Source: an uncultured Saprospiraceae bacterium
GTDB taxonomy: Bacteria > Bacteroidota > Bacteroidia > Chitinophagales > Saprospiraceae
Direction of reading: 5' to 3'
Assembly: GCA_937951615.1 (NCBI GenBank)
Contig: CALFBH010000037.1
Coordinates: 1-52,718 of the forward strand
DNA length: 52,718 nt
The position numbers and the translations under genes are program-made. How positions within the stretch are numbered: the first letter of the stretch is position 1; the number at the start of each line of letters is the position of its first letter. Below the pieces are notes generated by a model. It was given only the letters and a program-made list of their open reading frames with translations. It was not told the origin of the DNA and searched no databases. Below, piece after piece: positions 1 through 52,718 of this stretch.

Positions 1-207
1 ACGAAGGATTTGATTAAAATTAGTGGTTTGTCTCTGGAAATATGCTGTATTTTCAACTAAATTCGTCTGACGACAACGGAATTTGCTCAACGATGCTTTG
101 ATAGAACACGACTAAAATTTTGATGCGTTTGCCCTGAAAAATAATGATTTTATGGGAGTTATGCTTGTTTTTTTTGTAATTTTGTGTGTGATTGGTTGCG
201 TTATTTG
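1..207. other. Left-edge non-coding stretch
   Basis: AT-rich sequence with no open frame that looks like a gene; the frames present run antisense through the terminator and repeat tract to the right. A TAATTTTG box at 177-184 resembles a plus-strand Bacteroidota -7 element, but it has no good -33 partner and no plus-strand gene follows it. Confidence 0.4.
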
Positions 208-243
208 AAAAAAAGAGACACCAAGCCAAGCCCAATGTCTCTT
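208..243 (-). terminator. Intrinsic terminator of the M1 peptidase gene
   Basis: Read on the minus strand, AAGAGACA (236-243) pairs perfectly with TGTCTCTT (213-220) across a 15-nt loop and runs straight into a T tract (208-214). It lies about 60 nt past the peptidase stop codon, the expected place for a factor-independent terminator. Confidence 0.7.
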
Positions 244-244
244 C

Positions 245-303
245 CAAAATAACTTCAAAACCAGTCACAAACAACCAGTTACCAATCACCAATAAACCAA
301 TCA
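245..303 (-). repeat. Word-like tract after the M1 peptidase stop codon
   Basis: On the minus strand this reads as loosely repeated words such as TTGGTGATTGGTAACTGG between the stop codon and the terminator. The same words follow the stop codons at 10581, 29198 and 49860, always in the same orientation relative to the gene. Confidence 0.6.
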
Positions 304-2643
304 CTACTCCCCACCAGCTCCAGTCTTACCTTTCTCCACCTCTTTCGCCCGGCGGTCGCGCTGCATCTTATTCTCTCTACTGCGTTGTTGTTTGAACATT
401 TCAAAGCGGGAAGGCTGTGCTTTTGGCGGCCAGTAATTATTGGACTTGTCGGTATCTGCGGTTTCCTTGAAAGGGTCGAGGATAATGCGCCTGATCTCCT
501 TTTTGACCGGGAACACCTTGGTCACTTTTTCGTGCGGCAGCATTTTCCAAATCTCGGCTGGAATATGGATAATTTCGTCCGTACCATCTTTATATCTGAA
601 TTTCAAAATAATCGGCATCACCAGTCCGCCGACATTTTTGAAGGTCACTTCATAGAAATGATAGCCTTCGTCCAGTAATGCTTTTTCGTCCGCTGGAAGT
701 GAATTATAAAATGCTTCATATTCCTGACGGTCGAGCGCATTGACATCGTAAGGGCTGTATTCATTATAAAAATCACGAGTAGAAGGATCACGTTCTGTAA
801 CCGTTTTTTTGACCGCTTTGGCATTGCGAATTTTGGTGATGTTTTGTTCCTCTGCTTCTTTTTCCAACTTAGAAATTTCGCGAACCTCATCAGGACTTTG
901 AGAGCCCAATTGCATCCAGTTTACTTCATCAATCGCAATATCTACATGGTCGGTCGTATAAAACCAGCCTCTCCAAAACCAGTCGAGGTCAACACTTGAA
1001 GCGTCTTCCATCGTCCGGAAAAAATCTGCAGGCGAGGGATGCTTGAACATCCAGCGTTGAGAAAATTCGCGGAAAGCGTGGTCGAATAATTCCCGTCCCA
1101 TGACAGTTTCACGGAGAATATTGAGCGCTGTTGCAGGTTTTCCGTAAGCATTATTTCCAAATTGGAAGATAGACTCTGAATTGGTCATGATGGGCGAAAT
1201 TTTACTTTTATCGCCTTTCATATAATTGATAATATTTTCGGGTGGCCCGCGACGGGAAGGATAATCGCGTTCCCATTGCTGCTCCGTCAGGTATTGCAAA
1301 AAGCTGTTCATACCTTCATCCATCCAGGTCCATTGTCGTTCGTCGGAATTGACAATCATGGGGAAATAATTATGCCCTACTTCGTGAATAATCACGCCGA
1401 TCATGCCATACTTGGTACGAGCAGAATAAGTGCCATCTTTTTCGGGGCGACCAAAGTTGAAGCAAATCATCGGATATTCCATACCAATGCGCTTGGCACT
1501 GACCGAAATCGCTACTGGATATGGGTAATCGAAGGTGTGGTGCGAATAGGTTTTCAGCGTTTGCACAACAGCTTTTGTTGAGTATTGTTCCCAAAGTGGA
1601 TTGCCTTCTTTTGGATAATAAGACATCGCCATAATGGTGCGATTGCCCTGCTTCACGCCTTGTGCATCCCAGATAAATTTACGGGAAGATGCCCAACCGA
1701 AATCGCGCACGTTTTTGGCGTGGAAAGTCCAGGTTTTAGAACCACTTGCTTTTTCTGTCTCATTATTTTTGGCTTCGTCTTCAGTGATAATCATCACGGG
1801 TGCGTCGGCGGTTTTCGCCTGCTCGAAGCGTTTGCGCTGCTCGGCAGTCAGAACGCTGGCTGGATTTTGCAAAGTACCTGTAGAAGCCACAACATGGTCG
1901 GCAGGTACAGTCAGGTTTACTTTATAATCGCCAAAGGCTAAGGCAAACTCACCGCGCCCGAGGAACTGCTTGTTTTGCCAGCCGTTTATCTCATCATACA
2001 CGCACATACGCGGGAAAAACTGCGCGATGGTGTACAGGTAATTATCGTTTTCTTCAAAATATTCGTAGCCAGAACGTCCTCCAATTTTCATACGGTCGTT
2101 GATGTTGTACCACCATTTTATTTTGAAAGAATATTTGCCGCCAGGCTTCAAGTCTGTTGGCAGGTCAATCCGCATCATCGTTTTATTGATGGTATAAGGT
2201 AGGTCGCTGCCACCAGTGGTCTTGACATGTTCTATCTTAAAACCGCCATCAAAATCATTGAACAATTTTTTGATGTCGCGCATACTCGATTCTTCGCTGA
2301 TGCTGGTCGGGCGAATTTTATAGGAGTCCGAATCCTTTGCCCGCATGTTTTGATCGAGTTGCAACCACAAATAACTCAGCACATCTGGCGAGTTGTTGTG
2401 GTAAGTAATGGTTTCTTCGCCATAAATCTGCTGGGCATCATCATCAAGCCTGATGTCCATCACGTAATCGGCTTGTTGTTGCCAGTATTCATGTCCCGGT
2501 GCGCCGGAAGCTGCCCGATAGACATTCGGCGTGGGCAATTCCTGTCCGAGTTGGCGGAATTTGTTGGTATTGGTATTGTCTTGTGCCGTCAGTCCGCCAG
2601 AGAGGAGGATAAGCAAAGCCAATAGAGTGTTTATTTGTTTCAT
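304..2643 (-). CDS. Secreted M1 family metallopeptidase
   Basis: Zinc aminopeptidase of the M1 (gluzincin) family, expected to act in the periplasm or outside the cell. The start is placed at the internal Met at 2643 because it begins a clean signal peptide (MKQINTLLALLILLSGGLTAQ); the open frame extends 30 codons upstream but those codons would bury the signal. The zinc motif HEVGH is at residues 420-424 with the third ligand Glu at 443 (HEXXH-X18-E), and a GMEYPM segment upstream matches the exopeptidase GxMEN-type loop. The length of 779 residues suits secreted Bacteroidota M1 enzymes. The C-terminus is a beta-rich region ending in a DPF..DxxxxNN-like tail. No T9SS sorting domain was seen. 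A fragment of another M1-type C-terminus lies at 6525-6764. The substrate is unknown. Confidence 0.9.
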   Translation of the reverse strand: MKQINTLLALLILLSGGLTAQDNTNTNKFRQLGQELPTPNVYRAASGAPGHEYWQQQADYVMDIRLDDDAQQIYGEETITYHNNSPDVLSYLWLQLDQNMRAKDSDSYKIRPTSISEESSMRDIKKLFNDFDGGFKIEHVKTTGGSDLPYTINKTMMRIDLPTDLKPGGKYSFKIKWWYNINDRMKIGGRSGYEYFEENDNYLYTIAQFFPRMCVYDEINGWQNKQFLGRGEFALAFGDYKVNLTVPADHVVASTGTLQNPASVLTAEQRKRFEQAKTADAPVMIITEDEAKNNETEKASGSKTWTFHAKNVRDFGWASSRKFIWDAQGVKQGNRTIMAMSYYPKEGNPLWEQYSTKAVVQTLKTYSHHTFDYPYPVAISVSAKRIGMEYPMICFNFGRPEKDGTYSARTKYGMIGVIIHEVGHNYFPMIVNSDERQWTWMDEGMNSFLQYLTEQQWERDYPSRRGPPENIINYMKGDKSKISPIMTNSESIFQFGNNAYGKPATALNILRETVMGRELFDHAFREFSQRWMFKHPSPADFFRTMEDASSVDLDWFWRGWFYTTDHVDIAIDEVNWMQLGSQSPDEVREISKLEKEAEEQNITKIRNAKAVKKTVTERDPSTRDFYNEYSPYDVNALDRQEYEAFYNSLPADEKALLDEGYHFYEVTFKNVGGLVMPIILKFRYKDGTDEIIHIPAEIWKMLPHEKVTKVFPVKKEIRRIILDPFKETADTDKSNNYWPPKAQPSRFEMFKQQRSRENKMQRDRRAKEVEKGKTGAGGE

Positions 2644-2732
2644 ATTATTAGTTTTCAGAAACGATTTTCTATGTTTTATTAAATTTTTTATTCTTGTATT
2701 CCAATTTAGATAGCGTTTGATGTTTGACCCCA

Positions 2733-2823
2733 AAGCTCTGAAAGAGCGAAATATGTCAGCGAGGGACGAAGTCCTTCGTAAGAAATAGACACCTCACAAG
2801 CCCTGAAAGGGCGAAATAAATAC
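2733..2823. repeat. REP-like palindromic unit beside the RAYT gene
   Basis: It contains imperfect palindromes (AGCTCTGAAAGAGC, GCCCTGAAAGGGC) and a foldback around GAGGGACGAAGTCCTTC. It abuts the 3' end of the transposase gene and is repeated at 3426-3515 with about ten differences. Palindromes of this kind beside a Y1 transposase are typical of REP/RAYT systems. Confidence 0.75.
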
Positions 2824-3276
2824 TCAATCCCAAACATATCGCTCATCATAATCTACCTTATATTTATTTAAAAACGCACGATACTTTTCTTGAAAGGTCT
2901 TATTACGATGGTGTTCATGTTGGGTTTGAATGTAATTTATAGCTACTTTCGTTTCACTTGGATTAACAGAAAATGCGCCATACCCATCTTGCCAATAAAA
3001 ATTAGCTAAACTACCGTCCTTAGTTTTCATCCATTTAGAAGAATTTATTTTTATTTTTTTAATTAACTCTACCAATGCTATGTTTTTAGACAACATACAG
3101 AGTATATGTACATGATCTATGTAGCCACCTACAGCAAGTACAGGGCAAGATAACTCATTGCAAATACCACCCAAATATGCGTGTAACTCCTGCTCATAAA
3201 GAGGCTTGATGAGAGGCTGTCGATTTTTAGTGCTGAATATGATATGAATATAATTTTTTACTAATGATTGTCCCAT
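2824..3276 (-). CDS. REP-associated tyrosine transposase (IS200-like, Y1)
   Basis: HUH-superfamily Y1 transposase of the IS200/RAYT type, which nicks single-stranded DNA at hairpins through a tyrosine. At 150 residues it has the usual size. The HUH motif reads DHVHIL with His55 and His57; the candidate nucleophile is Tyr115 in AINYIQTQ. The C-terminus DYDERYVWD is typical of Bacteroidota members. It is flanked on both sides by palindromes (2733-2823, 3288-3347, 3426-3515) rather than by terminal inverted repeats, so it resembles a domesticated RAYT more than an active insertion sequence. The frame is intact. A decayed 3' end of a second copy lies at 3518-3566, showing an earlier duplication or recombination between repeats. 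Confidence 0.88.
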   Translation of the reverse strand: MGQSLVKNYIHIIFSTKNRQPLIKPLYEQELHAYLGGICNELSCPVLAVGGYIDHVHILCMLSKNIALVELIKKIKINSSKWMKTKDGSLANFYWQDGYGAFSVNPSETKVAINYIQTQHEHHRNKTFQEKYRAFLNKYKVDYDERYVWD

Positions 3277-3287
3277 ATATTATAGAT

Positions 3288-3347
3288 ATTTCGCCCTTTC
3301 AGGGCTTGGTAAAAGGGGAGATCTTTTTCGATGGGATGCTCCCATCG
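3288..3347. repeat. REP palindromes upstream of the RAYT gene
   Basis: GCCCTTTCAGGGC (3293-3305) is the inverted form of the palindrome found at the 3' side of the gene. CGATGGGATGCTCCCATCG (3329-3347) is a perfect 8-bp stem with a 3-nt loop. A further degenerate unit (tcctttcaggac) follows near 3361. Confidence 0.7.
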
Positions 3348-3425
3348 CTGACATATATCGTCCTTTCAGGACTTGTTGAAATAGAACCAAACCACCTCTG
3401 TATAAAAGGGGGATGTTTAAGTTTG

Positions 3426-3515: not shown

Positions 3516-3517
3516 AC

Positions 3518-3566: not shown

Positions 3567-3571
3567 GTCAT

Positions 3572-4156: not shown

Positions 4157-4187
4157 TTGCGGATTGGTTTGATTGTTGATGTCATCA

Positions 4188-4880: not shown

Positions 4881-4885
4881 CCGCG

Positions 4886-5035
4886 TGGGGTCGATAGTCG
4901 ATAGTCCATGGTCGATAGTGCAATCGAGGCGTGGGCTTTATTTTGCTTTGCAAAAGCCTTAAAAAACTACATCAACTTATTAGACTTTATTTCTCTCTTA
5001 CAGCCATGGACTATGGACCATCGACTATGGACTTA
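4886..5035. repeat. Paired inverted word tracts with central hairpin
   Basis: After the DUF6702 stop come repeats of GGTCGATAGT/CCATGG (4886-4921). Before the HAD gene come their reverse complements, ATGGACCATCGACTATGGAC (about 5004-5035). Between them TTTTGC-TTT-GCAAAA (4941-4955) forms a hairpin with extra outer pairing GGCT/GCC. The whole spacer can fold back on itself. The word GGTCGAT recurs as a perfect tandem array at 52614-52718. Confidence 0.7.
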
Positions 5036-5046
5036 ATTGAAAAACT

Positions 5047-5718: not shown

Positions 5719-5726
5719 ATAAGCTC

Positions 5727-6340: not shown

Positions 6341-6471
6341 CGCCCATGAATGAATTCATTGGCTACCAGATAGGTCGTCGCGATGCGACTTGGATAGAGT
6401 TTCAGCCTGATAGTTTTGTCAAGTGTCATCGACACGAATTGTTTGGTAGCCAATGGTTTTAACCATGGGCG
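6341..6471. repeat. 131-bp foldback element, copy 1
   Basis: It begins CGCCCATG..., includes TTGGCTACCAGATA on the left, and ends TTGGTAGCCAATGG...CCATGGGCG, so the ends are inverted repeats. A second copy of the same architecture is at 24551-24676. The right arms of the two copies are nearly identical; the centres differ. Confidence 0.7.
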
Positions 6472-7261: not shown

Positions 7262-7325
7262 AATACAGTTACACAATCACTCAATTACGCAGTAACACAA
7301 TTACTCAGTAACACAATCACACCAA
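7262..7325 (+). repeat. A/C-rich word tract before the first thioredoxin gene
   Basis: Three near repeats built on CAGTAACACAATCACTC lie directly before the start codon at 7331. The composition and orientation match the tracts before the genes at 26998 and 13056 (minus). It occupies the expected leader region. Confidence 0.6.
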
Positions 7326-8518: not shown

Positions 8519-8520
8519 GA

Positions 8521-8622
8521 CCAGAGAAGCGAGAGACGAGACCATTCCATTGCGAGAAGCGAGACTTACGACGTAAAAGATCCCGCTTCTCGCAGCGTAG
8601 CGGTCTCGCTTCTCGCTTCTCA
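8521..8622. repeat. Paired inverted tracts between the thioredoxin genes
   Basis: GAGAAGCGAGA-type words follow the first gene and TCTCGCTTCTC-type words precede the second. GAGAAGCGAGAC (8556-8567) can pair with GTCTCGCTTCTC (8611-8622), and further pairs lie inside. It is a long intergenic foldback with the same polarity as other tracts in the window. Confidence 0.65.
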
Positions 8623-8637
8623 ATAAATCACAGATAC

Positions 8638-9795: not shown

Positions 9796-9796
9796 A

Positions 9797-9833
9797 GTGT
9801 GTTGATGTGTTGTGGTGTTAATGTGTTGTTGTT
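9797..9833 (+). repeat. T/G-rich word tract after thioredoxin copy 2
   Basis: Repeats of GTGTTGATGTGTTGTGG fill the whole gap between two plus-strand genes. The same vocabulary appears, as complement, after the epimerase gene at 13155-13198 and before the gene at 26998. Confidence 0.6.
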
Positions 9834-10529
9834 ATGATTCGAGTTTTTCTATTCATTATAGTGCTTGTTTTTCTTCAATCTTGTGGAAATGAAAGGGAGC
9901 AGCGTGCGGCACAATTAGCCGAACAAAAAAAGGATTCTCTACTAACTGTCAGGCTACAGTTGATGAGGAAAATGGCAGAAAGAGAGGCTGCCCAAATAGA
10001 ACTTAATAATCTCTATCAAAATAGACGGTATAATCCTGATTCAATAAGCGACTCACTCATTATAGCTTATGAAATTCACTGTCCATGGGAATGTGGTCAT
10101 CGTAATTTATTTACAAATAGAACAGGCAAGGAAAAAGTAATTTCCAGGGCATCGTTTTTAGAATTAATTCAAGTTTTAGATACTCCAAAAACGTATGGCG
10201 GATATACTGCTGCGTGTTTTCACCCAAAAGTTGGAGTTATAAGCTATGATGCTAAAAAAAGACCTCAAAGCTATATCGGAATTTGCTTGAGTTGTAATAA
10301 TCAGACTTCTAATATTGATTTTGATGATGGGGTAACCAATAAAACTACTCGATATGGCTACTCTAAAAACGGGCGCCATAAAATCCGAAATATCTTGAAT
10401 CAGTGGGGCTTCGACCATTCCAAGTCATATTCATCTTTCGATTCAAAGCAAGAGTATGGAGACTTTTTGAAAAGGGAAGGATGGAGTGCTGAAAAGATTG
10501 AAGAAGAGCTGAAAGGGCCTTATAAGTAA
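9834..10529 (+). CDS. Lipoprotein with paired cysteine motifs
   Basis: A 231-residue lipoprotein of unknown function. The signal ends in a lipobox LQSC with the lipidated Cys at 17. A charged helical stretch (about 20-60) precedes a globular part with CPWEC (83-87), a single Cys128, and CLSC (151-154); together these could bind a metal such as zinc or be redox-active. The C-terminus (DFLKREGWSAEKIEEELKGP) is helical. No family was recognised. The position after two thioredoxin-domain proteins makes a disulfide or metal connection plausible, but that is inference. Confidence 0.7.
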   Translation: MIRVFLFIIVLVFLQSCGNEREQRAAQLAEQKKDSLLTVRLQLMRKMAEREAAQIELNNLYQNRRYNPDSISDSLIIAYEIHCPWECGHRNLFTNRTGKEKVISRASFLELIQVLDTPKTYGGYTAACFHPKVGVISYDAKKRPQSYIGICLSCNNQTSNIDFDDGVTNKTTRYGYSKNGRHKIRNILNQWGFDHSKSYSSFDSKQEYGDFLKREGWSAEKIEEELKGPYK

Positions 10530-10537
10530 GCGTATGC

Positions 10538-10612
10538 CAGTTTATTTTGCTCCGCAAAATGCCCTCTAATATACCAATCACTAATCACCAATACTCCAGT
10601 CACCAATCACCT
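10538..10612. repeat. Small hairpin and word tract between convergent genes
   Basis: ATTTTGC-TCC-GCAAAAT (10545-10561) is a perfect hairpin, similar to those at 4941 and 28476. From about 10565 come ACCAATCACTAATCACC-type words, which read T/G-rich after the stop of the minus-strand acetyltransferase gene and also supply its last codons. Confidence 0.6.
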
Positions 10613-11072
10613 TCACCATTTCCTGATTTTGTAGATTGCTCCTCACCACTTCATAGCCCAGTTTTTTGTAAATATGAATCGCTCGTTTATTGTCCATAAA
10701 TACATTAAGCAAGATGCTTTGTATGCCTAATGTTGCTAGTTTCTTTTCCAGCAATAGCATGGTTTGTTGTCCGTATTCTTGATTTTGGAAAACCTCAAAA
10801 ATAAGTATCTGCACCAGAAAAGCCGCTGGCTTATCAAGTTGAACAAATAATCCTCCGATTACCCTGTCTTCGGTATTAGCCAAAGTCCAGAAGATGGTAT
10901 TTTTTGTGGCTTGTCCGTGCGGCAATAATTCAGCATGTTCCTTTTTGGATTCTTCTAATGCTTTTTTGTGTGACCAGTCAAAATGATGTGCCATATCTTT
11001 TGCTAGTTGTTCGACTTCATAGCCCATAAAGGTGGTGTATTCTGCTGGGGTCATCGCTTGAAATTGTAGCAT
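10581..11072 (-). CDS. GNAT family N-acetyltransferase
   Basis: A 163-residue acetyltransferase of the GNAT fold, which transfers an acetyl group from acetyl-CoA. The N-terminal part (YEVEQLAKDMA...) resembles acetyltransferases of small molecules. The acetyl-CoA-binding region is around FQNQEYGQQTMLLLEKKL, a variant of the Q/RxxGxG/A loop, and the closing motif NKRAIHIYKKLGYEVV is typical. The final residues VIGDWSIGD are encoded by the word-like repeat found in other spacers, so the original C-terminus has probably been overwritten by repeat sequence. The substrate is unknown. It is convergent with the lipoprotein gene. Confidence 0.82.
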   Translation of the reverse strand: MLQFQAMTPAEYTTFMGYEVEQLAKDMAHHFDWSHKKALEESKKEHAELLPHGQATKNTIFWTLANTEDRVIGGLFVQLDKPAAFLVQILIFEVFQNQEYGQQTMLLLEKKLATLGIQSILLNVFMDNKRAIHIYKKLGYEVVRSNLQNQEMVKVIGDWSIGD

Positions 11073-11985: not shown

Positions 11986-12017
11986 CATTCATTCATTCAT
12001 TCATTCATTCATTCATT
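11986..12017 (-). repeat. CATT tetranucleotide array at the rlmN 3' end
   Basis: Eight copies of CATT (GAATGAATG on the rlmN strand) end five bases before the rlmN stop codon. Being a perfect simple repeat it is prone to slippage. Related ATGAATGATGAACG words lie upstream of yidC. Confidence 0.8.
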
Positions 12018-12021
12018 TCAT

Positions 12022-13056
12022 TCACTCCTTGTTCGCCAACTGCCCACAGGCGGCGTCGATATCCCGTCCACGACTACGGCGTACCGTTACATTCACACCA
12101 TGATCCGATAAATAGCCGGAAAACACATCTAGTCGGTCTTCTTCCGATTTGTTAAAAGGTGCATTATCAATGGCGTTATATTCGATGATATTGATTTTTA
12201 CTGGAAAACTTCTGCACAGTTTAGCAAGGCGTTTGGCATCGCCGATACTGTCATTGAAGTTATTGAAAGCGATGTATTCGTAAGTAATTCGGTTGTCTGT
12301 TTTTTCATGAAAATAAATCAAGGCTTCCATCAGCGTGGCAAGGTTGTTTTGCTCATTGATGGGCATGATTTCATTGCGCTTTTCATCGTCGGCAGCGTGG
12401 AGCGAGAGGGCGAGGTTGAACCGGACGCCATCATCAGCCAGTTTTTTTATCATCTTCGAAATACCAGCCGTACTGACTGTAATCCGCTTTGGCGACATGT
12501 TCAGTCCTTCTGGCGAAGTCAGGTGTTCTATACTTTGTAAGACATTTTTATAAGCCAACAAAGGCTCACCCATACCCATATATACAATATTGGTCAGCGG
12601 CAGCCCAAACTTTTCCATTGCCTGCTCATTTACCATCGTCACCTGATCATAAATTTCGCCCGGATCGAGATTGCGTTCGCGCTTCATCCGCCCAGTCGCA
12701 CAGAAGGAACAGCTCAGGCTACACCCTACCTGCGAAGATACACAAACCGTAAAACGTTTTTCAGAAGCAACAGGAATCAACACCGATTCAATCAAATGTC
12801 CGTCATGCAATCGAAAACGGGTTTTTATAGTGCCATCGTTGCTATGTTGTACTTTATCCATGACGATAGGACGCAGCAGGAATTTTTCCTCCAATAGTTT
12901 TCTCAATGGCTTGGAAAGGTTGGTCATATCCGCAAAAGAACGCGCACTTTTTTGCCACAGCCATTCATATACCTGCTTGGCGCGAAAGCGTTTTTCACCA
13001 ATCTCCAAAAAGAAGTCGGTCAGTTCTGTTAAATTCAATAAGCGAATATCTTGCAT
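12022..13056 (-). CDS. rlmN: 23S rRNA/tRNA adenosine-C2 methyltransferase RlmN
   Basis: Radical-SAM enzyme that methylates C2 of A2503 in 23S rRNA and of A37 in some tRNAs. The start is set at 13056 (MQDIRLLNLTELTDF), giving 344 residues; 26 further upstream codons are translated CAA/ACA repeat and are not credible. The [4Fe-4S] cluster motif CSLSCSFC supplies Cys112, 116 and 119. The two mechanistic cysteines are likely Cys105 (VCVSSQVGC) and Cys337 (AACGQL). GMGEPL and FNLALSLHA are standard family segments. It is downstream of the TIGR01777 epimerase gene on the same strand, separated by a 143-bp spacer that can fold into one long hairpin. Confidence 0.95.
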   Translation of the reverse strand: MQDIRLLNLTELTDFFLEIGEKRFRAKQVYEWLWQKSARSFADMTNLSKPLRKLLEEKFLLRPIVMDKVQHSNDGTIKTRFRLHDGHLIESVLIPVASEKRFTVCVSSQVGCSLSCSFCATGRMKRERNLDPGEIYDQVTMVNEQAMEKFGLPLTNIVYMGMGEPLLAYKNVLQSIEHLTSPEGLNMSPKRITVSTAGISKMIKKLADDGVRFNLALSLHAADDEKRNEIMPINEQNNLATLMEALIYFHEKTDNRITYEYIAFNNFNDSIGDAKRLAKLCRSFPVKINIIEYNAIDNAPFNKSEEDRLDVFSGYLSDHGVNVTVRRSRGRDIDAACGQLANKE

Positions 13057-13058
13057 TT

Positions 13059-13198
13059 TGTTGTGTTGTTGTGTTGTCGTGTTGTTGTGTTGTCGTGTTG
13101 TCGTGTTTGTTTTGCGGATGTAGTGATAATTCATGAATTATCGCAACCGCAAAACAAATCACATCAACACACGCACACACCAACACCTCAACACACTT
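13059..13198. repeat. Paired inverted word tracts and hairpin between epimerase and rlmN
   Basis: The left half (13059-13110) is T/G-rich (TTGTGTTGTCGTG words) and the right half (13155-13198) is A/C-rich (CACATCAACACACG words), so the halves are complementary. In the middle GTTTTGCGG (13109-13117) pairs with CCGCAAAAC (13147-13155) around a perfect 18-bp palindrome GATAATTCATGAATTATC (13125-13142). Confidence 0.75.
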
Positions 13199-13199
13199 T

Positions 13200-24442: not shown

Positions 24443-24550
24443 AGCGAGTCATCCCAAATTTCAAGAAAAACAGAAATTATAAGAGATTGATTCCCGATGG
24501 CTTATTTAGTTTTAAAACTATTTAAAATTGCACAATTTTGCCACCCCATT

Positions 24551-24676
24551 CGCCTACGGTTGAAACCATAGTCTACCAGATAATCCGTGTCTACGACACT
24601 TTGTAAAGCTATTTAGCTGAAAGACTACTAAGATAGCGACGAATCATTTGGTAGCCAATGGTTTCAACCATGGGCG
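24551..24676. repeat. 126-bp foldback element, copy 2
   Basis: It begins CGCCTACGGTTGAAACCATA, continues GTCTACCAGATA, and ends TTGGTAGCCAATGGTTTCAA followed by CCATGGGCG, so the two ends are inverted repeats. It shares ends and layout with 6341-6471. It fills most of the 283-bp gap before yidC, in which no gene was seen. Confidence 0.75.
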
Positions 24677-24725: not shown

Positions 24726-26627
24726 CTATTTTTTCTTAGACTTATTTTTTGCCGCCCCAGTCTTATTCTGCTGTTCTTTCATCGCTTTCTCCAGACTTTG
24801 CTGGAAAGCACCTTTTTTCTTAGGCTTCTTTCTATTGGCATCCAATTCGGCTAATATTTTTTCCTCATTAATGACGAATTTTTTAGCCACAATCGTTTGT
24901 GTAATATTGATTACATTACTAAAAAACAGGTAACAACTCAGACCAGATGCAAAACTATTGAAGAAGACAATAAAAAACATCGGCATCACATACTGCACAT
25001 ATTTCATCATCGGCTGTGCGCTGAAATCCATGTGCTTGCTATTATAATAAGCATACATCACAGTCGTAACTGCCCAAAGCAAGGTAAACAAACTGACGTG
25101 TGCTCCGTACATCGGTATTTCAAAAGGAAGATTCATAATAGAATCCCAAGAGGATAAATCATCCGCCCACAAAAAGCTCTTCTGCCGGAACTCAATGGAA
25201 GCCGGGAAGAAACGATATAAGGCAAACCAAATCGGCATTTGCAGCAACATCGGCATACAACCTCCGAGCGGACTCACACCGGTTTCCCGATACAGTGCCA
25301 TCTGAGCCATTTGTTGTTTCTGCGCATCATCGCCGTGTTTTTCTTTGAGCTTCGCCAATTCTGGTTTCAATGCGCCCATTTTCGCCTGCGAATACAACAT
25401 CTTATAGGTCAATGGAAACATCACCATTTTCACAATCAGCGTCAGCAGCAAAATGACAATACCATAATTGCCAACAAAACCCGAGATGAAATTGAACAAG
25501 GGACGGAAAATATGTCGATTGATCCAGCCAAAAATACTCCAGCCAAAAGGAATAATCTGCTGCAGCTCCATGTCATAGCTTTGCAGCAAATCATATTTAT
25601 TCGGTCCCAAAAACATTTGCATCGCAAACACTTCATTCGCCTGATGCTGATAAGGAATTTCTATTCTGGAAATGAGTTTTTTAATTTCCTCACTATCGCT
25701 CTCCAGCATATCCGACTCCGTATAAACTCCGCCAAACTGACTTTTCGCAATCAAGGTAGAATTGAAAAACTGCTGGGCATGAGAGACCCATTTTACCGCT
25801 TTATCGGTTTCATCGTCATCACTGCTTCTACAACTACAATAGGTCGGATCTTCATCCACTTCTTTATAATAAACCGTCGATAAATTTTTCTCATTATAAG
25901 CTGAAGCATCTTTTTCGAGTTTGTTCAGATAATTGACCCAGTTGAGTTCTATGCTATTTTTATCGCGGGAAATAACATCATTCAGCCCAACAAAATTCAG
26001 GTCATAATCGACCATATAACTGCCATCTTCAATCGTAAATTTCTGTTCTAAATATCTGCCGCTTCCAGCATCTGCTTTAAAACTAATCGTATTGCCGGAC
26101 ACCGTTGGCGTAAAATATAAATCACTGGTATAGACCTCTCTGCTTTCCGCAGAACCAACAGGCAGGCGATAGTCAAATTTGTTTTTAGGGTCAGCCATGA
26201 TATTCAGTTGCTCTTTATGGTAGTCATCGAGCTTATCCCTCACCCATTTCTTATAGCCTTTCAACTCTACATTTTTGATGCGCGCGCCTTTATTGGTAAA
26301 GACGATTTTCATCACATCATTTTCCAATATCACATCCTCCTCTGTACCGACTCCTGCTGCTGCAAAAACGCCAAGTTTCCCGTTCATCGCCTGCTGGCGC
26401 ACAGAATCAGGTAGTGCGGCGGTTTTTTCTTCTTCAATTTTTTCGACTTCTTTTGTTTCTGTGATGCCTAACTCTTTCAGACTGTCCAAACGCTGTACAT
26501 CCATACGCAGAGAATCCTGAACAAATTTGCGTCGTTCTATTTCTTGCGGTGATGGCTGATTGAACCAGCTCATAGCCATCAATAAACCGAAAATTAAAAG
26601 AAAACCCGTTATTGTATTTTTATCCAT
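24726..26627 (-). CDS. yidC: Membrane protein insertase YidC
   Basis: A 633-residue inner-membrane insertase that integrates and folds membrane proteins with or without SecYEG. The N-terminal membrane anchor (TGFLLIFGLLMAMSWFNQPS) is followed by a large periplasmic beta domain (about 60-360) and the conserved 60 kDa inner-membrane core of five helices (NYGIVILLLTLIVKMVMFPL; SPLGGCMPMLLQMPIWFALY; LFTLLWAVTTVMYAYYN; YVMPMFFIVFFNSFASGLSC). The Lys-rich cytoplasmic tail ends NKTGAAKNKSKKK. The length is in the usual range for the phylum. Upstream lies a 370-bp spacer with word-like tracts. Confidence 0.97.
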   Translation of the reverse strand: MDKNTITGFLLIFGLLMAMSWFNQPSPQEIERRKFVQDSLRMDVQRLDSLKELGITETKEVEKIEEEKTAALPDSVRQQAMNGKLGVFAAAGVGTEEDVILENDVMKIVFTNKGARIKNVELKGYKKWVRDKLDDYHKEQLNIMADPKNKFDYRLPVGSAESREVYTSDLYFTPTVSGNTISFKADAGSGRYLEQKFTIEDGSYMVDYDLNFVGLNDVISRDKNSIELNWVNYLNKLEKDASAYNEKNLSTVYYKEVDEDPTYCSCRSSDDDETDKAVKWVSHAQQFFNSTLIAKSQFGGVYTESDMLESDSEEIKKLISRIEIPYQHQANEVFAMQMFLGPNKYDLLQSYDMELQQIIPFGWSIFGWINRHIFRPLFNFISGFVGNYGIVILLLTLIVKMVMFPLTYKMLYSQAKMGALKPELAKLKEKHGDDAQKQQMAQMALYRETGVSPLGGCMPMLLQMPIWFALYRFFPASIEFRQKSFLWADDLSSWDSIMNLPFEIPMYGAHVSLFTLLWAVTTVMYAYYNSKHMDFSAQPMMKYVQYVMPMFFIVFFNSFASGLSCYLFFSNVINITQTIVAKKFVINEEKILAELDANRKKPKKKGAFQQSLEKAMKEQQNKTGAAKNKSKKK

Positions 26628-26997
26628 TCTTTTATATAATGATGAATGATGAACGATGAACGATGAACTTTTAAAGATTCATGACCATTCATTCAGCATC
26701 CTTTTTTATTCTAATCGCAAAAATGACTGCAATGGTAAGAAAAATTTGCCGATTTTTAGGCATTTTCAGACAGTTTACACCATTGAAAAGACAACATTTT
26801 ATGAAAGCCTATCGTTCTGATTATTCTACATAAGCAACTCGAATTCCGACGAGTATTGGTTTTTTTAGCCTTGCAATACATCAACACAACAATACATCAA
26901 CACAACAACACAATAAATTATCCCCTATTACTTGTCAAAATTTCAACAAAAAATAGTAATATTGCGGAGACCATAATAATTAGAAATCACATAATCT
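26628..26997. other. Spacer between yidC and the 26998 gene
   Basis: No gene was seen in 370 bp. Next to yidC (26641-26670) are repeats of GATGAATGATGAACG, which read as TTCATCGTTCATC before yidC. Next to the plus-strand gene (26872-26917) are repeats of CATCAACACAACAATA. Both tracts lie on the start-codon side of their gene and have the orientation expected from other spacers. The middle is AT-rich and probably holds divergent promoters. Confidence 0.55.
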
Positions 26998-28433: not shown

Positions 28434-28475
28434 TTGGGTAATTGAGTTGAGTAAGTTATTATGTAATTAGTAGAA

Positions 28476-28500
28476 GTTTATTTTGCGTAGCAAAATAAAC
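28476..28500 (+). terminator. Perfect 11-bp hairpin between DUF3822 and rsmD
   Basis: GTTTATTTTGC-GTA-GCAAAATAAAC has a perfect stem and a 3-nt loop. It is followed by the tandem array rather than a T tract, so it may be an attenuator or processing signal instead of a terminator. Hairpins with the same TTTTGC/GCAAAA core are at 4941-4955 and 10545-10561. Confidence 0.55.
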
Positions 28501-28578
28501 TCAATAAACTCAATAAACTCAATAAACTCAATAAACTCAATAAACTCAATAAACTCAATAAACTCAATAAACTCAATA
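28498..28578 (+). repeat. Nine-copy tandem repeat (9-bp unit) before rsmD
   Basis: Nine perfect copies of AACTCAATA end three bases before the rsmD start codon. One frame is open through the array and would add a Ser-Ile-Asn repeat to RsmD. The preceding T/G-rich tract (28434-28475, TTGAGTTGAGTAAG) is complementary in kind. Being 9 bp long, the unit keeps frame when the copy number changes. Confidence 0.9.
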
Positions 28579-28581
28579 ACA

Positions 28582-29127: not shown

Positions 29128-29197
29128 TGATTGATTATTAGCTGTTTTGCCTAAGCCAAACCAGTTACTAATAACCAATCACCAATATACTAATTTA
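29128..29197. repeat. Word tracts between convergent rsmD and nadA
   Basis: After rsmD the plus strand reads TTAGTGATTGATTATTAG. Before the nadA stop the plus strand reads ACCAATCACCAATATAC, which is T/G-rich on the nadA strand. Each gene thus has the same kind of tract after its own stop codon, and the two halves are mutually complementary. Confidence 0.6.
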
Positions 29198-30202
29198 CTA
29201 CAACCCAGCCTTAGCCGAAATCTCCATCATCCGATTAATCGGCGCAATACCATCGCGAATGATATGCTCCGGCAATATAATTTCCGGCAATTCATGCTTC
29301 ATGCACAAATACAATTTCTCCATCGTATTCCGCTTCATGTGCGGACATTCGTTGCAGGCGCAGGTATTATTCGGCGGAGCCGGAATAAAAGTCTTATTCG
29401 GCGAAAATTTCTCCATCTGGTGAATAATGCCAACTTCCGTTCCTACAATAAAAGTATCTGCATCATTTTCTCTGGTATAACGAATCAGCGAACTGGTAGA
29501 ACCAATATAATCGGCAATTTCCAATAATTGTGGCTCACATTCAGGATGCGCAATAAATTTCGCTTCAGGGTTGCGATTCATCAATTTGACGATTTTTTCC
29601 ATCGCAAAAATCTCGTGTACCATACAGGCACCATTCCACAAAATCATATCCCGTCCAGTCTTCTTCACCAGATAAGCCCCTAGATTTTTGTCTGGTGCAA
29701 AAATGATTTTCTTATCCTTAGGAATACTGTCTATGATGTGAACCGCATTGGTAGAAGTACATACAATATCCGTCAGCGTCTTGAGTTCTGCGGTACAATT
29801 GATATAACTCACGACCACGTGGTCAGGATGTTTTTCTTTGAATTTGCGAAACACATCCGCAGGGCAGGAATCCGCCAGCGAGCAGCCAGCTTTCAAATCC
29901 GGCAACAAAACTTTTTTACTAGGACTCAGCATTTTAGCTGTTTCTGCCATGAAGTGTACGCCTGCAAAAACAATAATATCGGCATCGGTTTCAGCAGCTT
30001 TCTGCGAAAGCCCAAGACTATCGCCTGTATAATCTGCAATGTCCTGTATCTCTGACTCCTGATAATAATGCGCCAGAATAATCGCATTTTTTTCTTTCTT
30101 CAGTTTCTCAATTTCCTCAACCAGATCCATCGTTGGATCTACGTCAATATTTAAATAGCCATTTAAATCCAAATCGGCTTTTGCGGAAGCTATATCTACC
30201 AT
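29198..30202 (-). CDS. nadA: Quinolinate synthase NadA
   Basis: A 334-residue [4Fe-4S] enzyme that condenses iminoaspartate with dihydroxyacetone phosphate to quinolinate in de novo NAD synthesis. Family signatures are [68 protein letters not shown] and [18 protein letters not shown]. Cluster ligands are probably Cys107, Cys193 and one of Cys281, 283 or 286. No nadB or nadC is in the window. The gene stands alone, convergent with rsmD. Confidence 0.97.
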
Positions 30203-34200: not shown

Positions 34201-37200
34201 GTTCTGTTATAGGACCACCTTCTCCAGATATTACGGTCGTGACAGACGCCGAGGATAATTGTACACCTACAGTTGCCTTTGTTAACGATGCTTTAAGTGG
34301 GACAGTCTGCCCCCAAATCATTACACGCACCTATAGTGTCACTGATGAGACAGGAAATTCTATTAATGTTACCCAAACCATTACAATAAATGATGATACA
34401 CCTCCAGTGCTAACCGTTCCTGTCGATGCAATAGTAGAATGTAATAACAGTTTTGCAGGAACAGAGAATGCCATTATTATAAATGATAATTTTAGTACGG
34501 GTAATGACTGGACAGTCAATACCGCAGGTGGAAATGCTAATGGAGAAGTTCTTTTTAATGGTGGACAGGCTTTTATGGGAGAAGCTACTCCTAATGGACC
34601 AGGCGCAGCAGTAGCTGAAATATGCCGAACCTTCAATACCACTAATTTTACAAATATTACCTTACAAATAGCAGCTTTCCAAAGTAATGCAGGATTTGAA
34701 GGAACAGACAACCTGACCATTACCTATGATACAGGAGGAGGAGCCACCACATTATTATCCGACCCCGAAGTATGGCAAGGAGTAGATGGACAGACAGGCG
34801 TGAATGATGGGAATACACAAAATACAGCTTCTCCTGTATTGGTTTTACCAGCCACCGCAGATAATAATGCCAGTCTTGTTATTTGTATTACCGTTACCGT
34901 AAATGATTCTAATGAAGATTATTTTGTATCAGGTCTTACACTAAGTGGCGAGGCAACTACTCCGGCTGCCAATGTAAGTCCATCTATTACAGGCAATGCT
35001 ACAGCTACTGATAATTGTTCTGCGGTTACCCCCACTTATACAGATGATCTATCCACCTTAACAGCTTGCGGAACAGGAACATTTGTGAGAACATGGACAG
35101 TATCTGATGAATGTGGAAATACAGTTTCAAATCCCCAAAACATCACCATTGAAGACACAACACCACCTGCACTTAGCGCAACGCCAGCTGACATTACGGT
35201 CGCCTGTATAGGAGATATACCAGGCGATCCAGGCATCACCGCTACCGACACTTGCGATGACATGCCTACCGTCACCTTTACCCAATCCACTGCACCAGCT
35301 TGTCCTGGCAATGGAATAATCACCAATACATGGCTAGCAACAGATTGTGCAGGGAACTCCGTCAGCCATGTACAAACCGTAACGATTGACGACAATACAC
35401 CACCAGTACTTAGCGCAATGCCAGCAGATGTCACAGTCGATTGCGCAGCAAATGCACCAAGTGATCTAGGTATCACAGCAACGGACAGCTGTGATGATAT
35501 GGTCAATGTAACTTTCACTCAATCCACTGCACCAGCTTGTCCTGGCAATGGAATAATCACCAATACATGGCTAGCAACAGACTGTGCAGGAAATACAACA
35601 ACCCACGTCCAAACCGTAACTATTGATGATAATACACCACCAGCACTTAGCACAACGCCAGCCAATGTTACGGTTGATTGCGCAGCAGATGTACCAGGCG
35701 ATTCGGGCATCACAGCAACAGATAATTGTGGTGAAACGCTCACAGTCACTTTCGTACAATCGGCTGTACCTGCCTGCCCAGGTGATGGAACAGTTACCAA
35801 CACATGGCTAGCAACAGATTGTGCAGGAAATACAACAACCCACGTCCAAACCGTAACTATTGATGATAATACACTTCCAATTCTTAGTGCAACGCCAGTA
35901 GATGTCACCGTTGATTGTGTAGCAAATATACCCAGCGATTCTGGCATTACCGCAACAGATAATTGTGGTGAAACACTAACAGTCACTTTCGTACAATCGG
36001 CTGTACCTGCCTGCCCAGGTGATGGAACAGTTACCAACACATGGATGGCAACAGATTGTGCAGGAAATACAACAACCCACGTCCAAACCGTAACTATTGA
36101 TGATAATACACTTCCTGTACTAAGTGCAACACCTGCTGATATTACCGTTGATTGCGCAGCTAATATACCTAATGACCCCGGCATCACAGCAACGGATAAT
36201 TGTGGAGAAACACTAACAGTCACTTTCGTACAATCGGCTGTACCTGCCTGCCCAGGAGATGGAACAGTCACCAATACATGGACGGCAACAGACTGTGCAG
36301 GAAATATTGCCAGTTATGTACAAACCATTACCATTGATGATAATACACTTCCTGTACTAAGTGCAACACCTGCTGATATTACCGTTGATTGCGCAGCTAA
36401 TATACCTAATGACCCAGGCATCACAGCAACGGATAATTGTGGAGAAACGCTCACAGTCACTTTCGTACAATCGGCTGTACCTGCCTGCCCAGGCGATGGA
36501 ACAGTCACCAATACATGGACGGCAACAGACTGTGCAGGAAATATTGCCAGTCATGTACAAACCATTACCATTGATGATAATACACCACCAGTACTAAGTG
36601 CAACACCTGCTGATGTTACTGTTGATTGCGCAGCTAATATACCTAATGACCCAGGCATCACAGCAACGGATAATTGTGGAGAAATACTAACGGTTACCTT
36701 CACTCAATCCGCTGCACCAAGCTGTTCAGGCGATGGAACAGTCACCAATACATGGACAGCAACAGACTGTGCAGGAAATATTGCCAGTTATGTACAAACC
36801 ATTACCATTGACGATAATACACCACCAGTGCTAAGTGCAACACCTGCTGATATTACCGTTGATTGCGCAGCTAATATACCTAATGACCCAGGACTTACAG
36901 CAACGGATAATTGTGGAGAAACGCTCACAGTCACTTTCGTGCAATCGGCAGTACCTACCTGCCCAGGCGATGGAACAGTCACCAATACATGGACGGCAAC
37001 AGACTGTGCAGGAAATATTGCCAGTCATGTACAAACCATTACCATTGATGATAATACACCACCAGTACTAAGTGCAACACCTGCTGATGTTACTGTACAA
37101 TGTTCTGGTGATATTCCTGGTGATCCAGGCCTTACAGCAACAGATAATTGTGGAGAAACACTGACCGTGACCTTTACACAATCCGCTATTCCAAGTTGCC

Positions 37201-47472: not shown

Positions 47473-47515
47473 GGAAGTTTAAGTTTAAGTTTAGAGAACA
47501 AGAAAAAAATAACAG

Positions 47516-48532
47516 ATGCAATATAGAAAACATATCCGCTTCGACTGGGCAATAAAACGACTACTAAGACAAAAAGCCAATTTTGGCATCTTAGAAGGTT
47601 TTTTAAGTGAATTGCTGAAAGAGGATATTGAAATTCTGGAAATTATCGAAAGCGAAAGCAATAAGGAAACCGAAGAAGACAAGTATAACCGTGTTGATAT
47701 TTTAGTAAAGGATACAAAAGGGGACTTGATTATTATTGAAATCCAAAACTCCTATGCACTCGATTACTTTTTGAGGATACTTTACGGCATTTCAAAAGCG
47801 ATGATTGAGCATATAAAGCAGGGGGACACTTATGCCAAAGTCAAAAAAATTATTTCCGTCAATATCGTTTATTTTGAACTGGGGCATGGTGATGATTATA
47901 TTTACAAAGGAACAACAAGTTTTAAAGGCATTCACGACAATAAGCCGCTGGAACTGACACCAGCCCAAAAAAGACTATTTAAAAAAGAAAAGATAGAAGA
48001 AGTCTATCCTGAAATTTATCTGCTCAAAGTCAATAGATTTGATGATAATGCCAAAAATACGCTGGACGAGTGGATTTACTTTTTGAAAAACAGCGAAATC
48101 AAACAGGAATTTTCTGCCAAAGGAATCAAAGAAGCTGATGAAGTCCTGAAACATGGGAATATGTCGGATGAAGAGCGCAGGGATTATCAGCGGTTTGTGG
48201 AAGTATTGTCAGACCGTGCAAGTATTGCCATGACGATTGACTTTGAGTCAACTTTAAGGGCGGAAAAGATAGCACCTAAAATGGCAGAAAAGATGGCGAA
48301 AGAAATGGCAAAAGGAATGGCTGAAAACATAGCAAAGGAAATGGCTGACGAAATGGCAAAAGACATGGCTGAAGGAATGGCAAAAGACATGGCAAAGGAT
48401 ATAGCAAAAGCAAAGGTAGATAAAGCCATTGAAGCAATGATAATTAATACCGACCTTTCTAATGAAGATATTGCAAATACGCTGTCCGTAGAAATTGAAC
48501 GTGTCCGTACAATAAGAAATAAGCTCAAATGA
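47516..48532 (+). CDS. Rpn family PD-(D/E)XK nuclease/transposase
   Basis: A 338-residue Rpn-type protein (recombination-promoting nuclease, transposase-31-like). The N-terminal KHIRFDWAIKRLLRQKANFG is the family opening. The nuclease site is RVDILVKD with Asp61 and LIIIEIQN with Glu75 and Gln77 (PD-(D/E)XK type). The middle has FKNSEIKQEFSAKGIKEADE. The last part is a low-complexity helix of MAK(E/D) four-residue repeats (about 254-300), followed by a helix-turn-helix-like end (NEDIANTLSVEIERVRTIRN). Its stop overlaps the permease start (ATGA), so it is coupled to a pump gene it has no evident business with. It probably inserted into the exporter operon. Confidence 0.9.
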   Translation: MQYRKHIRFDWAIKRLLRQKANFGILEGFLSELLKEDIEILEIIESESNKETEEDKYNRVDILVKDTKGDLIIIEIQNSYALDYFLRILYGISKAMIEHIKQGDTYAKVKKIISVNIVYFELGHGDDYIYKGTTSFKGIHDNKPLELTPAQKRLFKKEKIEEVYPEIYLLKVNRFDDNAKNTLDEWIYFLKNSEIKQEFSAKGIKEADEVLKHGNMSDEERRDYQRFVEVLSDRASIAMTIDFESTLRAEKIAPKMAEKMAKEMAKGMAENIAKEMADEMAKDMAEGMAKDMAKDIAKAKVDKAIEAMIINTDLSNEDIANTLSVEIERVRTIRNKLK

Positions 48533-49860: not shown

Positions 49861-49972
49861 TGTGTTGGTGATTGGTAACTGGGATATTGGTGATCGGTGA
49901 TTGGTAACTGGAAATTAAGTTGGTTGAGCAGAGTCGAAACCAAGGGCTGGTAACTGGAGATTGGGGTATTGA
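49861..49972 (+). repeat. Word-like tract after the permease gene
   Basis: Repeats of TTGGTGATTGGTAACTGG begin within 5 nt of the stop codon, with TTGGTTGAGCAGAGTCGAAA at 49919-49938 embedded. The embedded word is the complement of TTCGACTCTGCTCA at 44921-44934. The vocabulary is the same as after the M1 peptidase, acetyltransferase and nadA genes. Confidence 0.7.
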
Positions 49973-50012
49973 CCAAGCTATAAATGAATTATTAATTTTT
50001 TAAAATAAAACC

Positions 50013-50519: not shown

Positions 50520-50533
50520 CAAAGCCTGAGTAG

Positions 50534-50579
50534 AATCATTAAGACATTAAGCCCACAAATCCTTAATGTTTTAATGATT
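50534..50579. terminator. Shared hairpin between convergent RDD and lpxH genes
   Basis: AATCATTAAGACATTAAG (50534-50551) pairs with CTTAATGTTTTAATGATT (50562-50579) over 18 bp with one G-T wobble and a 10-nt loop. The right arm includes the lpxH stop codon. It probably terminates both genes. Confidence 0.65.
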
Positions 50580-51324
50580 GCTCTTCAAAAGTTTCCAGCT
50601 CCAAAGTATCTCCATCAAAAACAGCATAAGTATTGAAATTCATCCATTCACCGAGATTGATGTAACGGCTTTTACCATTTTCGAGAGTAAGATCTAAGGG
50701 CAGGTGTCGATGTCCAAAAATGAAAAAGTCGTAATGCTGGGTTTCCAGTTTTCTATTGGCATATTGATACAACCACTCTTTTTCTTTGCTGATAAATTTT
50801 TCTGGTTCTTTTTCGTTTTGCGAACGGCTTTTTCCCGACCAAAAGTTGGCCAGCCGAATGGCGAAATTTGGATGCAGACGGGCAAATAGCCATTGACACA
50901 AACGATTGGAAAATACTTTTTTTATAAATTTATACCCATGATCGCCTGGTCCTAAGCCATCTCCATGTGCAATGAAAAATTGCTTGCCTTTTAGTTCGAT
51001 TTGGATGGCTTGGCGGTAAGTCGGGATGTCCAGTTCGTCTTCAAAATACTGGAACATCCACATATCGTGATTGCCTGTAAAGAAGTAAATCGGAATGCCT
51101 GCATCGCGCAGTTCTGCCAGTTTGCCCAATAATCGGACATAACCTTTTGGGACAACAGTCGCATATTCAAACCAAAAATCAAAGACATCGCCGACGAGAT
51201 AAATGGCTTCTGCATCAACTCGAATATATTCGAGCCAGCGCACGATACGTCGCTCGCGTTCGAGGCTTTTGGCTGCATTGGGTACACCCAAATGAAAATC
51301 CGATGCGAAGTAGATTTTACCCAT
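50563..51324 (-). CDS. lpxH: UDP-2,3-diacylglucosamine diphosphatase (LpxH)
   Basis: A 253-residue metallophosphoesterase that removes UMP from UDP-2,3-diacylglucosamine in lipid A synthesis. Metal-binding motifs are SDFHLG (Asp9, His11), VGDVFDFW (Asp46), TGNHDMW (Asn85, His86), IAHGDGLGPGDHGYK (His120) and FGHRHLP near residue 205. PGDHGYKFIKKVFSNRLCQW and FARLHPNFAIRLANFWS are family segments of the substrate pocket. The start codon overlaps the end of the acyl-CoA dehydrogenase gene by 8 nt. LpxH points to a Gram-negative outer membrane with lipid A. Confidence 0.93.
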   Translation of the reverse strand: MGKIYFASDFHLGVPNAAKSLERERRIVRWLEYIRVDAEAIYLVGDVFDFWFEYATVVPKGYVRLLGKLAELRDAGIPIYFFTGNHDMWMFQYFEDELDIPTYRQAIQIELKGKQFFIAHGDGLGPGDHGYKFIKKVFSNRLCQWLFARLHPNFAIRLANFWSGKSRSQNEKEPEKFISKEKEWLYQYANRKLETQHYDFFIFGHRHLPLDLTLENGKSRYINLGEWMNFNTYAVFDGDTLELETFEEQSLKH

Positions 51325-52501: not shown

Positions 52502-52534
52502 ATTGTAAATTTTTCTGCCATTTAGAATTGACTA

Positions 52535-52542
52535 CAAAATTA
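52535..52542 (-). promoter_or_regulatory. Candidate -7 element of the acyl-CoA dehydrogenase gene
   Basis: The minus strand reads TAATTTTG, matching TAnnTTTG, 34 nt upstream of the start codon. The -33 side is not clear at the expected spacing. The heptamer array begins about 70 nt further upstream. Confidence 0.4.
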
Positions 52543-52613
52543 CATAAAATAGATTACAATGCATGCATTGCTTTTTATTTAAACACCAGTATCTGCTAAA
52601 AAATTTCAAAACT

Positions 52614-52718
52614 GGTCGATGGTCGATGGTCGATGGTCGATGGTCGATGGTCGATGGTCGATGGTCGATGGTCGATGGTCGATGGTCGATGGTCGATGGT
52701 CGATGGTCGATGGTCGAT
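52614..52718. repeat. Perfect 15-copy heptamer array at the window edge
   Basis: Fifteen exact copies of GGTCGAT (105 bp) run to the last base, so the true length is unknown. The same word, interspersed with variants, occurs at 4886-4921 and inverted at about 5004-5035. Seen from the dehydrogenase gene the repeat reads ATCGACC, the before-start orientation. Confidence 0.95.

Follow-up and report, generated by a model that had tools for sequence, protein, structure and literature searches.

Polarised word tracts at gene ends of a Saprospiraceae genome as probable arms of dispersed palindromic intergenic elements

Word tracts in the spacers of the window

The window analysed here is the whole stretch of 52,718 nt of contig CALFBH010000037.1 from an uncultured Saprospiraceae bacterium (GenBank assembly GCA_937951615.1), whose genome, G000, is comprised of 6.96 Mb in 142 contigs (the window is contig C37 from base 1). 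Many of its spacers hold short tandem tracts built from a small vocabulary of words, which on the coding strand have more G than C after stop codons (G-form) and read as the reverse complement before start codons (C-form). We found that this polarity extends beyond the window whatever the direction of the genes, that it is a property of the word family, and that spacers often carry complementary tracts at their two ends. The reading that we somewhat favour is that self-complementary elements are dispersed through the spacers, and that most tracts are their arms or single arms left over from them. In layout such elements resemble repetitive extragenic palindrome (REP) doublets forming hairpins (REPINs) and bacterial interspersed mosaic elements (BIMEs). 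The features of the window are as follows, with the strand where one was assigned (ORF, open reading frame).

4881-5046: tandem spacer occupied by a family A element whose arms are GTCSATR heptamers; inverted-match score 17; aligned with 24 other loci
~4941-4955: core TTTTGC-TTT-GCAAAA of the family A element; Tandem Repeats Finder arrays flank it at 4890-4919 and 5004-5033
8519-8637: palindromic spacer of GAGAAGCGAGA words; score 21; other words at this junction in G001 and G003
13057-13199: family B-type element with octamer arms upstream of rlmN; score 25; like word type at the G001 junction
13057-13199: second palindrome, GATAATTCATGAATTATC, within the core loop of the rlmN-upstream element
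28434-28581: TTGAGTTGAG words, core TTTTGC-GTA-GCAAAA (~28481-28495), followed by nine and a half perfect AATAAACTC repeats; inverted match sub-threshold
9796-9833 (+): lone GTGTTG-type tract abutting a stop and the start of ORF 9834
10530-10580: core TTTTGC-TCC-GCAAAA (~10545-10559); next to the stop of 10581-11054 (-), a YTGGTRA-family tract
11986-12021: CATT array after the stop of 12022-13056 (-), AATG on the coding strand
26641-26668: GATGAAC array before the start of 24726-26627 (-), in a divergent spacer
26874-26913: CAACACAA array in the same divergent spacer as the GATGAAC array, 85 nt before start 26998
7271-7322 (+): CAATCACTCAATTACGCAG words before start 7331
49861-50012 (+): YTGGTRA-family words after stop 49860
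29150-29197: YTGGTRA-family words after the stop of 29198-30202 (-)
270-303: YTGGTRA-family words after the stop of 304-2733 (-)
47473-47515 (+): AAGTTTAAG tract in a 43-nt tandem spacer
52613-52718: fifteen perfect TGGTCGA heptamers reaching the window end (Tandem Repeats Finder)

An earlier note, made from the sequence of the window alone, had listed such words by place and strand, and at the 19 gene ends that were re-read (11 stops and 8 starts) they were found, or close variants of them. G exceeds C in the first 60 nt after 11 of 11 stops, as it had said. In the 130 nt before the eight starts, C exceeds G in six, but the two are equal in one (26627) and G exceeds C in one (52501), at which the array does not start until more than 110 nt upstream. 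The spacers at 9796-9833 and 47473-47515 are short and lie between co-directional ORFs, and therefore one G-form tract both follows a stop and precedes a start; ORF 9834-10529 has no Pfam match and may not be a gene. Complementary halves folding round a hairpin had been proposed for four spacers and were recovered at 4881-5046, 8519-8637 and 13057-13199, but the match at 28434-28581 lies below the score threshold, though the core hairpin is present. The element at 13057-13199 is not among the exact core matches counted below because its core is interrupted.

Polarity, word families and gene direction

Beyond the window, a G000 sample of 1.20 Mb in 14 contigs, window included, was analysed. Genes were called with our own Markov-model script, which gave 890 genes (1.03 Mb), missing some short genes and placing starts approximately; the 743 spacers analysed, each at least 30 nt long, total 170.8 kb. 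Tracts are the output of Tandem Repeats Finder with a period of at least 4, and edge tracts are those no more than 30 nt from a gene end with unequal G and C (n=198), while the tally by family used a limit of 40 nt (n=209). The intergenic tracts are real and dense: the spacers hold 277, versus 22, 17 and 23 in three shuffles, and the genes hold 80. The congeners compared are six genomes, G000 to G005, G000 included; a 2.8-kb piece of G031 was left out of the census.

The predicted sign, G-form after stops and C-form before starts, was found in 168 of the 198 edge tracts, so that the bias predicted from the window is seen beyond it, with 30 tracts going against it. It holds for tandem (130/152), convergent (20/25) and divergent (18/21) arrangements, and among non-tied tracts on the stop side alone for 81 of 99. 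In genome pieces from 13 relatives, 82 of 96 tracts no more than 40 nt from a gene agree, the majority coming from five congeners; across 80 loci of the rlmN region agreement is found in 14 of 17 tracts, any tract being present in just 24 of these loci. The start-side skew is partly ordinary leader composition, as five tract-poor relatives (64 tandem spacers) have a GC skew of -0.29 in the last 20 nt before starts and of +0.03 in the first 50 nt after stops.

The sign pattern that the earlier note described as orientation following the gene thus holds, but it is direction-free. The rule is geometrically identical to the statement that the 5' half of every spacer is G-form and the 3' half C-form, on either strand, and because of this identity, and because tandem, convergent and divergent spacers all obey it, gene direction adds no information.

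Polarity is a property of the word family and is fixed per family. Over all families 173 of the 209 tracts follow it, with counts (follow:against) of 64:2 for GTGTTGNN, 14:0 for YTGGTRA, 13:1 for GRGTTGC, 20:3 for AATGAWNN, 10:1 for GTCSATR, 9:1 for AAGTTT, 5:0 for GAAGCGAGA and 31:6 for unclassified words. The AAATTC/TTTGAA family is reversed (7 follow, 22 of 29 against) and supplies most of the exceptions; without AAATTC-type words 161 of 170 edge tracts follow (tandem 125/132, convergent 20/21, divergent 16/17). A regular-expression test found this family in G000 only, with 26 of 30 ends reversed, and its reversed polarity therefore rests on one genome; a few further reversed words occur in G005 and G003. 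Because of these words, the claim that the rule has no clear exception is wrong genome-wide.

Distant loci do share a vocabulary, as had been stated for the window: the same words recur throughout the genome, one octamer 16-mer being present in 306 copies in G000 and its reversed control in none. When both ends of a spacer could be classified, they had a common family in 59 of 97 cases (15.8 expected), and the two ends of one gene in 11 of 70 (11.6 expected). The unit is the spacer; a model of gene cassettes, or of pairing between the ends of a messenger RNA, was rejected, since gene ends share a family at chance only. Edge tracts that contain GGG or CCC follow the rule 29:1; both triplets are absent from 168 of the 198 edge tracts, and 139 of these 168 still follow.

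Palindromic anatomy and turnover of the elements

Inverted matches between left and right halves were scored in 518 spacers of 80-400 nt, with right halves exchanged between spacers of like length as the control. A strong match was found in 65 spacers, versus 7-10 with exchanged halves (tandem 47/343, convergent 16/77, divergent 2/98). At the centre of several families lies the core TTTTGC-NNN-GCAAAA, which has 72 copies in the 1.20 Mb, 69 of them in spacers, and one for the reversed control. Its triloop reads R-N-A, or the complement T-N-Y, in 67 of the 69 spacer copies; this preference is partly general, as 51 of 84 other triloops on 7-bp stems share it, and copies within a family are not independent. 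DNA mini-hairpins with GNA loops have high stability. Judged by their words, 25 of the 69 cores belong to family A (heptamer arms) and 16 to family B (octamer arms), and since the interiors can visibly be aligned, the core hairpin appears to join at least these two families. Cores with an R-N-A loop number 365 in the whole of G000, 21-204 in the five other congeners and 10 at most in any of 54 further genomes searched.

After masking of the tandem tracts, 329 of the 743 spacers still share sequence with another spacer, versus 6 and 8 of 743 in shuffles (103 of 218 spacers with tracts and 226 of 525 without), so that the spacers are composed largely of dispersed repeats, the word elements among them. 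In an arm-swap test, with elements turned by loop orientation, own arms matched no better than swapped arms in family A (15.34 vs 16.04) or family B (15.78 vs 18.79), and nothing in these families thus points to selection for a stem paired in RNA; in a mixed group of 24 other elements own arms did outscore swapped ones (99 of 5000), which is to be expected where families are mixed. The core hairpin, the only one assessed in this respect, has T's before the stem and A's after it on both strands, the reverse of an intrinsic terminator.

Two octamer elements, at window 13057-13199 and at C79:28934-29105 of G000, contain the GATAATTCATGAATTATC palindrome in their central hairpin, which suggests that palindromes insert into palindromes. 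A separate palindromic repeat of ~130 bp at 6343-6471 and 24540-24676 of the window is found at several dozen genomic places on both strands.

Comparison of the six congeners gave 39 conserved adjacent gene pairs, counted pairwise and not independent. As the earlier note had anticipated, congeners often have other words, or no spacer, at such junctions. In six of the 39, one spacer is at least 40 nt and the other no more than 10 nt long, filled versus nearly empty, and in 25 both are at least 40 nt; a coarse classification of the words gives a name to both sides in 13 of these 25, with a common family in three and a shared lumped class only in one more. One operon junction holds a 132 nt octamer palindrome in G000 versus 2 nt in G001; the junction at 8519-8637 carries GAGAAGCGAGA words in G000, GGTGAGT in G001 and GAGTTGCGGGTT in G003; and the junction before the orthologue of 48529 measures 0 nt in G001, with unlike words of 173, 136 and 189 nt in G002, G004 and G005. 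Octamer words are retained at two G000/G001 junctions, including 13057-13199, which counts against complete swapping. The octamer 16-mer is missing from G001 and G003 and has 1-3 copies in each of the three remaining congeners, another octamer variant has 39 copies in G005, and family A words occur in all six congeners, from 126 in G000 down to 2 in G005. A G001 octamer variant has 10 copies in G001, versus 3 for the reversed control, and 2 in G000; being so near its control, it is not claimed as a concerted change of one word across a genome.

Four matches to the transposase domain Y1_Tnp were found in G000, one of them in the window at 2824-3276, and none in G001, which holds its 21 cores despite this. 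Three of the four G000 loci were inspected, the window copy among them, and none has the core alongside; a transposase link in G000 thus finds no support. In G003 (L233, C161, 1-800) a Y1 gene is flanked on either side by GTAG-ended palindromes with the core between them, a REPtron-like layout. The GTAG tag was not evident, by eye, in the aligned families A and B of G000, and the GGTCTnnAGACC-type REP of G003 has no copy in the 1.20 Mb of G000. A kinship of the elements with REPINs is suggestive. The window copy itself is an Insertion Sequence 200 (IS200)-like Y1 transposase gene (2824-3276, reverse strand) within 2734-3300, with GCCCTGAAAGGGCGAAAT-type hairpins on both sides and Rfam Acido-Lenti-1 matches adjoining it at 2734-2778. 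As the GCCCTGAAAGGGCGAAAT-type motif has 8 copies in the 1.20 Mb and none in called genes, Acido-Lenti-1 may be a REP-like flank.

Origin of the polarity

If the tracts are mostly arms of dispersed palindromes, a complete element would comprise two complementary word arrays on either side of a small hairpin, TTTTGC-NNN-GCAAAA in several families, with words of 4-9 nt that differ between families and species. Such elements would sit between genes, their arms often within a few bases of a stop or start codon, and could nest. As a palindrome is the same from both strands, a G-first family will have the 5' end of the spacer in G-form whatever the gene direction, and the apparent gene-following code would become a property of the elements, with an RNA code unneeded. 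Copying may proceed by transposition or template switching and arm growth by slippage, while nesting and decay would produce lone arms. Translation could act as a filter, not a strict one, in that families facing starts with their C-form are tolerated and the other arm then lands after the upstream stop. That G-first families prevail is probably due to the start side: with the polarity turned round, G-rich words full of ATG, GTG and TTG would stand before starts, where Bacteroidota leaders avoid them; in start-side tracts, coding versus other strand, ATG occurs 17 versus 94 times and GTG or TTG 50 versus 708 times. In the cited parts of earlier studies, Bacteroidetes are described as having no Shine-Dalgarno leaders and unstructured 5' leaders (PMC3155529), with AUG under-represented near starts (PMC6847099). 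Selection on start codons alone is insufficient, as convergent spacers follow too (20/25), and insulation at stop codons is weakened as an explanation, as GRGTTGC words hold, by eye, no stop codon in any frame yet follow 13:1.

Several observations weigh against palindromic elements as the source of the tracts. Lone tracts, having no complementary partner, retain the polarity in 99 of 127 cases (tandem 69:20, convergent 13:4, divergent 17:4), which the palindrome model covers only via assumed lost partners. In spacers of at least 300 nt, 35 of 80 tracts lie no more than 12 nt from a gene end (5.5 expected), and random insertion would not yield such hugging. Divergent spacers have the polarity but an inverted match in merely 2 of 98, and G-rich words before starts do exist (the AAATTC family and one G003 tract), so the translation filter is not strict. 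No target-site duplication turned up, although no proper search was made, and no movement of an element was observed. Nested insertion into old elements could account for the polarity of lone tracts and for the hugging of gene ends; directional writing equally could.

By directional writing we mean a process at gene ends that extends arrays one way, the strand leading away from the gene taking the G-form, with palindromes where two arrays meet. It would account for the polarity of lone tracts, for the crowding at gene ends of long spacers and for spacers that bear different families at their two ends, but a spacer has the same family at both ends far more often than by chance, family interiors are homologous around a common core and one family has reverse polarity, and we regard it as unlikely. 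The earlier note had offered a genome-wide system of RNA processing, termination or insulation, and a signal of this kind, or one with a Rho or leader function, under selection at every gene end, would suit words that adjoin stop and start codons and C-form leaders poor in G and start codons. It is made improbable by a polarity that ignores gene direction, by arms in families A and B that do not co-vary, by a core flanked by T then A, opposite to a terminator, and by the six conserved junctions nearly empty in one genome. Its other suggestion, a strand-biased repeat-generating process, survives in part: a polarised generator could still operate, but most of the pattern follows from palindromic elements of fixed polarity.

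Ordinary local slippage, giving unrelated microsatellites with a start-side skew due to leader composition, fits the perfect AACACGAC, TGGTCGA and AATAAACTC arrays, which look slippage-grown, as well as the C over G skew before starts in tract-poor genomes. The shared vocabulary already disfavours it, the 306 copies of the 16-mer having no counterpart in the reversed control, and the stop-side bias and the 329 spacers that share non-tandem sequence also speak against it, so that we give it little credence. A G-quadruplex function, considered for the Xanthomonas and Nostoc heptamers with their like positional rule (Rehm et al. 2015, PMC4692102, in the part cited), agrees with the 29:1 ratio of tracts containing GGG or CCC, but most edge tracts lack both triplets and follow anyway. 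The polarity published for G-rich heptamers of two other phyla thus also holds for words without GGG, and therefore quadruplexes cannot be the general cause; we consider such a function most improbable here.

A wider reading, which we hold to be doubtful, has gene junctions filled with palindromic word arrays, specific to the species, by a hitherto unrecognised active generator, and takes G-first polarity as a law that intergenic word repeats obey in bacteria generally, independent of quadruplexes and gene direction. It would span the Bacteroidota (this analysis) and, going by the cited part of PMC4692102, the Gammaproteobacteria and Cyanobacteria. If true, the near-fixed R-N-A/T-N-Y triloop would point to a recognised single-stranded DNA hairpin as intermediate. 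Junctions at which the whole spacer differs between congeners in conserved gene order are a good site to study how intergenic DNA is made, and they also bear on how leaders stay functional during spacer change.

The elements of the preferred reading were compared with known repeats. REPs and REPINs are described in the cited part of PMC3116915 as extragenic, high-copy, self-complementary and two-armed, with singlets as remnants and with insertion into existing copies. The G000 elements are like REPINs and BIMEs, which are known with REP-associated tyrosine transposases (RAYT), in the extragenic, high-copy, self-complementary two-armed layout: cores are numerous, palindromic and mostly in spacers (69/72; 365 with an R-N-A loop genome-wide), and inverted doublets that form one long hairpin occur above control (65/518 vs 7-10), which lone tracts do not form. 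Compensatory arm changes were not seen in families A and B, and unlike REPINs the G000 arms are variable arrays of 4-9-nt words, mostly with no evident GTAG tag and with many vocabularies in one genome. Miniature inverted-repeat transposable elements are defined by terminal inverted repeats and target-site duplications; the G000 elements have inverted arms with fuzzy ends. Cyanobacterial short tandemly repeated repetitive (STRR) sequences and small dispersed repeats (SDR) offer further leads.

The closest precedent for the polarity is that of Rehm et al. 2015 (PMC4692102), the cited part of which describes G-rich heptamers of Xanthomonas and Nostoc, one word type per genus, discussed as quadruplexes and with no function found there; in any gene orientation the G-form lies within 50 nt of the gene, on the coding strand downstream of its stop and on the non-coding strand upstream of its start. 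The G000 tracts share this polarity rule (168/198), but they form many families, most without GGG and some reversed, and are often palindromes round a core. The TAACTGA direct repeats of Beggiatoaceae, Cyanobacteria and five Bacteroidetes are likewise intergenic short tandem words close upstream of start codons; as the cited passages have it, they are one word, mainly direct, facing starts, with a single inverted case mentioned (PMC4679880). The GTAG- and CGTC-tagged REP superfamilies, the CGTC type occurring in Bacteroidetes without a dedicated transposase according to the cited part of PMC3733652, are palindromic and intergenic like the G000 elements, but are single short tagged hairpins with no word arrays. 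In the open-access literature we found no description of the tract polarity for Saprospiraceae or Bacteroidetes, nor of one specific to palindrome families.

Minor observations concern the neighbouring genes. A tRNA search found none, and a megablast against plasmids with one window gene gave no match. The closest named match to the RlmN protein, 88% identical, is encoded on a contig of a Saprospiraceae metagenome-assembled genome. Upstream of rlmN, a promoter-like TAnnTTTG motif lies no more than 60 nt before the gene in 16 of 22 related loci (3.5% expected); G000 and G001 have no such motif there and carry the octamer element instead. Twelve-base repeats occupy 48279-48410 within ORF 47516-48532, and nearly eight repeats of 237 bp lie at 35307-37162 within an ORF of 2375 aa.

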